Source: Planosporangium thailandense (GTDB lineage: Bacteria; Actinomycetota; Actinomycetes; Mycobacteriales; Micromonosporaceae). From it: 64,000 nt of DNA. Both the position numbers and the translations under genes were made by a program. Each line of letters starts with the position of its first letter. Within the stretch, counting starts at the first letter, position 1. Shown here in pieces: positions 44,704 through 45,264 of the stretch. The notes beneath the pieces are model-generated. The model had not been told where the DNA came from, did no database searches, and saw only the letters and a list, made by a program, of their open reading frames with translations. The DNA is taken from NCBI RefSeq assembly GCF_011947195.1, contig NZ_JAATVY010000003.1:62001-126000 (forward strand), read 5' to 3'.

Positions 44704-44719
44704 GAAGGCGGGGGAAATA

Positions 44720-44925
44720 AGGCGACCCCCGGGGTTCCACGCGAACTGCGTGGGCCGGCTGGACAAGGGCCGGACCCCGGGGGTCGGGTAGCTGCTTGTT
44801 ATTCGCCGAGCCGCCGTGCGGTTCGACTACTGAGAGTCCAGAGGACGGCGACTAGCGGACAGCCACCTCACGAGTCCAAGACTTACACAACTTTGGACCA
44901 CCTCCTTTCCCGTGTACCGCCAACC
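44720..44925 (-). ncRNA. Candidate structured small transcript with extended anti-SD complementarity
   Basis: On the minus strand, TTGCGG and TAAGGT spaced by 17 bp (about 44928-44957) look like a promoter. Just downstream, 44895-44908 reads AAAGGAGGTGGTCC, complementary to the 16S rRNA 3' tail at 13 of 14 positions. No annotated gene follows. Only short frames exist: 12 codons from TTG 44890, or 24 codons from a GTG at 44901 that overlaps the ribosome-binding stretch. The transcript would end in the branched inverted repeat at 44724-44785. It may be a small mRNA or a regulatory RNA; the choice is open. Confidence 0.4.
44724..44785. terminator. Large branched inverted repeat after the STAS gene
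   Basis: GACCCCCGGGGT (44724-44735) and ACCCCGGGGGTC (44774-44785) are perfect 12-bp complements. Between them lie CCACGC/GCGTGG (44737-44742 with 44748-44753) and a GGCC/GGCC pair, so the RNA can form a three-way junction. It can terminate both the STAS transcript and a minus-strand transcript from about 44925. Confidence 0.65.
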
Positions 44926-45009
44926 TTAGGAGCGGTCCGGTCCGCCCGCAACGGATTTCCGGTGAACTGGACGACACGTAGGCTGGGTCGGGACCGGAGA
45001 GGGACGCAC

Positions 45010-45264
45010 GTGAAGCTCAAGCTCGACCTGCACGACATCTACAACCGCAGCGGTGACATCGAACGGGCGCTGCACGGCATCATCGCGGAGGCCGTGGAGA
45101 AGAAGGCCACGCTCGTGGAGATCATCCCGGGCAAGGGCTCCGGTCAGCTCAAGAAGCGGGTGCTGCGATTCCTCGATCAGAAGGAGATCAAGGCGCTGTA
45201 CCACCGGGTGGAGAAGGACTCCAAGAACTTCGGCCGCCTGTTCGTGCACTTCAAGTACAAGTGA
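45010..45264 (+). CDS. Stand-alone Smr-domain protein
   Basis: An 84-residue Smr (MutS2 C-terminal type) domain: LKLDLHDIYNRSGDIERALHGIIAEAVEKKATLVEIIPGKGSGQLKKRVLRFLDQ, with LDLH and the GKGSG loop (normally GxGxG), followed by the HFKYK end. Smr domains nick or bind branched DNA or act on RNA. GTG 45010 behind GGAGAGGGA is chosen; the frame is open upstream but the homology begins here. The promoter region faces the candidate minus-strand transcript. Confidence 0.82.
   Translation: MKLKLDLHDIYNRSGDIERALHGIIAEAVEKKATLVEIIPGKGSGQLKKRVLRFLDQKEIKALYHRVEKDSKNFGRLFVHFKYK

Follow-up and report, generated by a model that had tools for sequence, protein, structure and literature searches.

Ms1 RNA of Planosporangium thailandense carries a conserved block complementary to the 16S rRNA 3′ end and a conserved mini-ORF: a possible link between ribosomes and RNA polymerase storage

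Ms1 is known as MTS2823 in Mycobacterium tuberculosis and corresponds to scr3559 of Streptomyces coelicolor (PMC9130861, PMC4191392, PMC11077062). It binds core RNA polymerase (RNAP) in M. smegmatis and S. coelicolor, and its homologue was found on RNAP in M. tuberculosis (PMC4191392, PMC9130861, PMC11077062). In M. smegmatis, Ms1 increases about 130-fold into stationary phase (PMC4191392). PMC9130861 lists 14 orders of Ms1 hosts and describes conserved flanking genes, a HAD hydrolase gene among others. The RNA is abundant in stationary mycobacteria and streptomycetes and has been treated as non-coding. In the titles and abstract openings that we searched, neither an open reading frame (ORF) nor a pairing with 16S rRNA is reported for Ms1, and the main texts of PMC9130861, PMC4191392, PMC8539372 and PMC11077062 contain no word beginning with “Shine”.

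Here, we analysed a window of 64,000 nucleotides of Planosporangium thailandense (contig NZ_JAATVY010000003.1, positions 62,001 to 126,000). An earlier note had seen in it a minus-strand transcript that nothing in the gene list would explain. This proved wrong, as the stretch matches RF02471 (Ms_IGR-5) over the complete model (positions 1–184 of 184) with 107.4 bits at a gathering cut-off of 45, which is the single match in a search of the whole genome; in a covariance-model scan up to E = 1, the stretch gave RF02471 only and no match to the 6S RNA model. We take RF02471 to be Ms1 RNA, which fits the sequence. Judged by this match, the element is Ms1, the already known 6S-like actinobacterial RNA, and a new kind of RNA is ruled out. 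The locus is arranged as follows:

44717–44915, minus strand: Ms1 RNA (RF02471), 199 nt, cmscan 107.4 bits
A44915, minus strand: expected first nucleotide of Ms1, by analogy with the adenine determined by 5′ RACE in M. smegmatis (PMC4191392)
44344–44703, plus strand: STAS-domain gene, adjoining Ms1 on the opposite strand
45010–45264, plus strand: Smr-domain gene, adjoining Ms1

Because the STAS gene faces Ms1, no gene follows directly on the strand of Ms1, and a leader of a downstream gene is ruled out.

RF02471 matches were found in 70 of 396 genomes of the phylum at E 0.001 (28 from the window's class; of the 42 from other classes, seven score above the cut-off), in 249 of 394 genomes of the class and in 53 of 61 of the family. 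The main set comprises 176 RF02471 loci from these phylum, family and class searches, corresponding to 164 distinct 5′ domains, 124 of the window's class and 40 outside, with L028 and L030 counted outside. It contains all 70 phylum matches, 50 of the 54 family matches (all except those of G440, G411 and both of G444) and 58 further class matches among those listed for the 249 matching genomes, with best scores and family spread. The domains are related sequences. Because the RF02471 consensus carries UUG and UAG at the places of the start and stop codons described below, we also assembled a second set by scanning contigs with a pattern that ignores the start codon, the loop and the stop codon. 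From at least 120 stretches, 80 were listed, of which 46 (44 distinct) pass a filter for the P1 helix described below and 34 fail. The second set includes Streptomyces, Mycobacterium, Nocardia, Amycolatopsis, Nocardioides, Cellulomonas, Geodermatophilus, Actinomadura and Acidimicrobiia records; as it may overlap the first (L102 and L066 show an identical stretch), it serves as a check on selection and not as a wholly separate sample. At least two of the 34 stretches failing the filter are likely real Ms1 (L132, L170).

The same layout of P1, Shine-Dalgarno (SD) block and ORF is present in the other-class RF02471 loci L028, L030 and L031–L070, and the same 5′ domain is carried by records named Acidimicrobiia, Ilumatobacter and Microthrix. 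Acidimicrobiia are absent from the host table of PMC9130861, and the Acidimicrobiia-type records therefore represent a modest extension of the Ms1 host range; none of those tested from Acidimicrobiia and relatives (L102, L109, L134, L148, L150, L178) reaches the Rfam cut-off. An RF02471 match in a MAG labelled Acidobacteria (L120:2623–2818, minus strand, 47.7 bits) points to transfer or a mis-binned contig. Two adjacent sub-cut-off matches on one strand in G444 (C1:2364646–2364966) and two matches each in G525 and G758 are possible duplications of Ms1. Short ORFs behind GGAGGTGATCC or GGAGGTGGTCC also occur in L157 (Planktotalea), L173 (Acidobacteria) and L113 (a Chloroflexota MAG), stop soon after a GAGGTG and are perhaps due to chance, RF02471 not scoring above the cut-off there. 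Phage-borne Ms1 was ruled out among the viral sequences covered, as 0 of 82 pattern matches (80 of the 113 viral stretches found) passed the P1 filter.

Directly upstream of the element lies a putative housekeeping-type promoter, the TTGCGG-17-TAAGGT pair that had been recognized before and is indeed present on the minus strand:

44946–44951, minus strand: −35 hexamer TTGCGG, read from the sequence
44923–44928, minus strand: −10 hexamer TAAGGT, read from the sequence, with a 17 nt spacer to TTGCGG

The pattern TTG-N3-N15-19-TA-N3-T occurs upstream of 108 of the 124 class homologues and of none of the 39 testable homologues from other classes, which may have another promoter type or a different start. 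Controls gave 0 of 164 for downstream stretches and a mean of 2.75 of 163 for shuffled upstream stretches; a generic sigma-70 scan did not score the TTGCGG-17-TAAGGT pair.

Close to the expected 5′ end, the RNA contains a block that can pair with the end of 16S rRNA:

44895–44910, minus strand: 16-nt extended SD block, complementary to the whole 16S 3′ end, duplex −29.9 kcal/mol

The sequence GGATCACCTCCTTTCT occurs once in the window's genome and was taken as the 16S 3′ end. Compared with its exact complement, AAAGGAGGTGGTCC (44908–44895) has a G opposite U as sole difference, and the 13/14 match given in the earlier note is correct and even understated: with the G-U pair counted, all 16 nt of the tail pair. 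The duplex (−29.9 kcal/mol) is far more stable than that of the strongest (−19.6 kcal/mol) of 707 ATG/GTG starts of open frames of at least 200 codons in the window, a comparison that includes nested starts and non-gene frames. A search of the 7.0 Mb genome for AAAGGAGGTGATCC with up to one mismatch hits exactly two places, the 16S gene and Ms1, and a reversed-pattern control gave none. This uniqueness is limited to the window's genome because relatives have other one-mismatch sites: the genome together with 20 family relatives contains 60 sites with up to one mismatch (between 0 and 6 in each), compared with 12 for the reversed control pattern; 28 of the 60 are perfect, of which two are the Ms1 of G411 and G413 and the rest presumably 16S genes.

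The block is kept in the homologues found in other classes and thus beyond close relatives. Among the 163 distinct domains available for pairing counts (with L292, whose block is two bases short, excluded), 162 can form 15–16 contiguous pairs with the 16S 3′ end (16 in 139, 15 in 23), the remaining one forming 12, and 161 carry GGAGGTG without any change. Position by position, the alleles suit the 16S partner: U is faced by A or G, G by C or T, C always by G and A always by T. Over 15 block positions, 108 minor alleles keep the pairing and two break it, and the eight positions opposite C or A do not change at all; at the sixteenth position, opposite the last 16S nucleotide, pairing is broken in 22 of the 163 domains. 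This allele test is strong and not exclusive, since helix P2 (see below) constrains the last five positions as well and transitions are generally common. The same 16S tail is found exactly in 55 of 100 phylum genomes, and in the other 45 the tail may differ or the 16S gene may be missing from the assembly. Pairing of the RNA with 16S rRNA is thereby well supported at the sequence level, by the genome scan as well as by the alleles.

The block is followed by a short ORF:

44852–44890, minus strand: mini-ORF of 12 codons, TTG 44890 to TAG 44852, starting 10 nt after GGAGG (TTG TGT AAG TCT TGG ACT CGT GAG GTG GCT GTC CGC TAG)

An ATG, GTG or TTG 7–14 nt after GGAGG and in frame with the stop is present in 144 of the 164 domains, as compared to 22 and 8 for the other two frames. 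Between SD and stop, the ORF frame is interrupted in 0 of 164 domains and the other frames in 154 and 106. The previously reported tiny ORFs of 12 or 24 codons thus fare differently: the 12-codon ORF holds, and the 24-codon GTG frame is readable in the window, but frames outside the mini-ORF contain earlier stops in most homologues. TTG (89) is the most frequent start codon, followed by ATG (43) and GTG (12); 19 of the 20 domains without any of these have CTG, ATT, ATC or ATA in frame, and only L031 has ACG at the start place. The stop is TAG in 143 domains, TGA in 12 and TAA in eight, never TGG; in the remaining domain, L259, the usual stop is CAG and the next codon an in-frame TAG, making the ORF one codon longer.

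Within the class, every one of the 124 main-set domains has a 12-codon ORF (start codons TTG 73, ATG 39, GTG 10, CTG 1, ATT 1) while the spacer ranges from 8 to 12 nt. The 40 domains from other classes have 14 (19 domains), 13 (12 domains), 15 (four) or 10 codons (three); of the remainder, one has 11 codons (or 12, from ATT) and one no listed start. Outside the main set, we found 13 codons in Nonomuraea of the class (L140, L144) and 19 codons in L120. The distance from SD to stop takes all residues modulo 3 (41, 47 and 76 domains) because the spacer varies freely and the ORF length does not. In L059, L060 and L063, the ORF reads the invariant GAGGTG in a different frame, and TTG and TAG are still in frame with each other; L054 behaves in the same way, with ATT as start. 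When the columns of the 124 twelve-codon ORFs were shuffled (500 shuffles), 14.1 ORFs with an in-frame stop were expected on average, with a minimum of six, against none observed. In the second set, 40 of 44 members have an open in-frame ORF and three more have CTG in frame, a stop codon is at its place in 43 of 44, and start codons distribute over the frames as 41, 2 and 1; the one member with an earlier in-frame stop, L113, is probably not Ms1. The 34 stretches failing the P1 filter show start codons by frame of 9, 1 and 4 and internal stops of 6, 6 and 16. Across this comparison, start, frame and stop are conserved through substitutions and length changes, as expected of a translated small ORF, and the mini-ORF is very probably engaged by ribosomes.

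The peptide behaves differently. Conservation of amino acids, another mark of a translated small ORF, was not found among the 124 twelve-codon ORFs, which encode 105 different peptides; codons 2–4 vary at all three codon positions, and the invariant Glu-Val (codons 8–9) coincides with an invariant RNA hexamer. Selection therefore seems to act on translation or ribosome loading and not on the product. The suggestion of a small-protein mRNA was in this sense half right, as an in-frame mini-ORF is conserved in several classes and its peptide is not.

The proposed helices around the block and the ORF, and the hairpin at the 3′ end, are the following:

44911–44914, minus strand: P1 helix, 5′ strand CACG, covariation
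44869–44872, minus strand: P1 helix, 3′ strand CGTG, covariation
44895–44899, minus strand: P2 helix, 5′ strand GGTCC, within the 16S-complementary block, formed in the minimum free energy (MFE) fold
44873–44877, minus strand: P2 helix, 3′ strand GGACT, formed in the MFE fold
44859–44867, minus strand: P3 helix, 5′ strand GGTGGCTGT, inside ORF codons 8–11
44787–44795, minus strand: P3 helix, 3′ strand GCAGCTACC, in the MFE fold of the whole RNA
44724–44785, minus strand: branched 3′ hairpin, probable terminator, −45.8 kcal/mol, z −5.1

Helix pairs were counted at anchored positions, with one base of slack for the 5′ strand, because GGAC is shifted by one column in part of the MAFFT rows; RNAalifold on the MAFFT alignment (A1) gave only three pairs, none of them in P1 or P2. 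The cells of P1 are paired in 96.2% (473 of 492 in the class, 154 of 160 outside), compared to 78.3% in shuffles (maximum 80.7) and 7–68% when the strands are slid, and 94 cells are changed on both sides. P1 is absent from the Rfam consensus structure of RF02471, a model that could be improved with this covarying helix; it is not formed in the predicted MFE fold of the window's RNA and mostly unformed in the ensemble. P2 (GGTCC/GGACN) is paired in 91.0%, equal to shuffles, with one cell changed on both sides; as it is almost invariant, it cannot show covariation, and the sequences are consistent with it. The Rfam helix GGUGGU/GCUGCC likewise has 91.0% of cells paired, about as in shuffles, without any change on both sides. 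For the 5′ strand of P3, 106 of 124 class domains and 10 of 40 other-class domains offer a strong downstream partner, counts that are biased upwards because the partner is picked as the best match; with shuffled downstream sequence, the figures are 8.7% and 9.7%, computed with L028 and L030 counted inside the class.

The whole RNA folds better than shuffled sequences (z −3.3) and the 5′ domain alone does not (z −0.19). In the predicted ensemble, the bases before GGAGG are mostly open, GGAGGU is partly paired and part of the ORF is buried by P2 and P3. The branched terminator proposed for the 3′ end is borne out as a stable hairpin; a good U-run is missing, and a terminator scan found nothing there.

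As best explanation, we propose that this is an Ms1 RNA with a 16S-complementary block and a peptide-independent mini-ORF through which ribosome loading gates RNAP storage. On balance we consider this explanation probable, a judgement that weighs the very probable engagement of the mini-ORF against a much more tentative switch: that Ms1 is a translation-gated RNAP reservoir, in which the supply of ribosomes opens Ms1 and frees core polymerase, is a possibility to which we give somewhat less than even weight. From the identity of the RNA, its 16S complementarity, the conserved frame and P1, all of which are read from sequence comparison, we infer that 30S subunits bind and the mini-ORF is translated, and that ribosomes unfold Ms1 and influence its storage of RNAP. 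In this mechanism, the docking site would lie between P1 and P2, the P2 loop would contain the start codon, and the ORF would pass first the 3′ strands of P2 and of P1, then the 5′ strand of P3. As the ORF overlaps strands of three proposed helices, translation should unfold Ms1, and loading of a ribosome would require both the 5′ domain and the base of the main rod to open. At high translation capacity, in growth and outgrowth, ribosomes would hold Ms1 open and lower its stability or its grip on RNAP; when initiation fails in stationary phase, Ms1 would fold, accumulate and store core polymerase.

Several observations count against this explanation. Weak start codons are common, and L031 offers only ACG; other classes show P3 and the promoter pattern weakly or not at all; the domains compared are related to one another; the covariance-model-derived set has no change in ORF length within the class; and the RF02471 consensus itself carries UUG and UAG at the start and stop places of the ORF. 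The predicted folding also counts against it, with GGAGGU partly paired, some of the ORF buried by P2 and P3, P1 mostly unformed and a 5′ domain that by itself is no more stable than its shuffles. The 130-fold rise of Ms1 may have a transcriptional cause, which also counts against the switch. According to the text of PMC4191392, Ms1 expressed artificially in exponential M. smegmatis bound RNAP about as well as natural Ms1 in stationary phase, which speaks against translation fully blocking the binding. The same source reports that 16S rRNA was not recovered with RNAP-bound Ms1; this is expected if ribosome and RNAP exclude each other, and equally if no ribosome ever binds.

The alternative that survives best, and that we nevertheless regard as unlikely, is that a 30S subunit parked on the extended SD shields the Ms1 5′ end from ribonucleases, similar to a STAB-SD, with the ORF merely letting the ribosome leave. 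The SD begins within 10 nt of the expected 5′ end, the block pairs far more strongly than the other window starts scored, most start codons are weak and the peptide lacks conservation, all as such a stabiliser would have it; a STAB-SD, however, can do without an ORF, whereas Ms1 keeps one with its frame, start and stop. In addition, most stationary-phase Ms1 sediments with the RNAP fractions, with ribosomes at the bottom of the gradient (PMC4191392).

Quite improbable is that no ribosome is involved, and that block, loop triplet and CURR motif are kept for the fold or an RNAP contact with the frame as a by-product. Part of the conservation is explained by P1, P2 and P3, and the missing 16S rRNA in the RNAP pulldown and the one fixed ORF length within the class in the covariance-model-derived set fit as well. 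Structure alone, however, predicts neither length changes by whole codons nor an interchange of stop codons that omits TGG, nor the absence of in-frame stops from a loop whose other frames do contain them; the block alleles, moreover, track their 16S partner base by base.

That Ms1 is a dual-function RNA with a separately functional 12-residue peptide is less probable still. The ORF is conserved and similar peptide beginnings (start residue, then Ser-Asp-Ser) recur in distant lineages, but the diversity of the encoded sequences and the variation of codons 2–4 speak against a functional peptide, and Glu-Val is set by the RNA hexamer, which is kept when read out of frame (L054, L059, L060, L063). 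Finally, the general titration of 30S subunits by Ms1, as the earlier note had proposed, is barely credible: Ms1 is the closest match to the 16S complement in the window's genome besides 16S itself, but a stationary M. smegmatis cell has about 2800 ribosomes to about 400–600 Ms1 molecules, of which about 40% are bound to RNAP (PMC4191392). Involvement of the ribosome, as the earlier note had suspected, is borne out by the comparative evidence and appears unreported within the literature searched.

In comparison with known systems, the window's element is a member of the Ms1/MTS2823/scr3559 family (Ms_IGR-5) without any difference in kind, sharing the full-length covariance-model match, the promoter type, the 3′ hairpin and the single genomic match. 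Within the literature searched, the P1 helix, the mini-ORF and the conserved block complementary to 16S rRNA are undescribed, and our comparison would add them to the picture of this family. Leader-peptide attenuators also consist of a short ORF in a structured RNA, the translation of which changes the folding; the Ms1 ORF differs in having neither conserved regulatory codons nor a downstream gene on the same strand. STAB-SDs of Bacillus mRNAs are strong SDs at the 5′ end with no ORF directly after. Ms1 shares with them a very strong SD near the 5′ end, whereas the conserved start, frame and stop that follow set it outside this definition. CoRP RNA of Corynebacterium is, like Ms1, an abundant actinobacterial RNA that binds RNAP; at about 500 nt, it is set apart by its description, and the Ms1 searches given in that text found no Ms1 in Corynebacterium (PMC11077062).

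The last comparison is with 6S RNA (ssrS), which like Ms1 is an abundant RNA that stores RNAP and must release the polymerase at outgrowth. 6S RNA binds the sigma70 holoenzyme and is freed by the copying of a pRNA, in contrast to Ms1, which binds the sigma-free core (PMC9130861). Ribosome loading could be the release signal for Ms1 as pRNA synthesis is for 6S RNA, a possible answer to how core polymerase leaves Ms1 at outgrowth. A conserved mini-ORF behind an exceptionally strong ribosome binding site would tie the RNAP pool to the ribosomes in one molecule, and if this is true, transcription capacity in Actinomycetota would be set directly by translation capacity, through a ribosomal counterpart of pRNA release.
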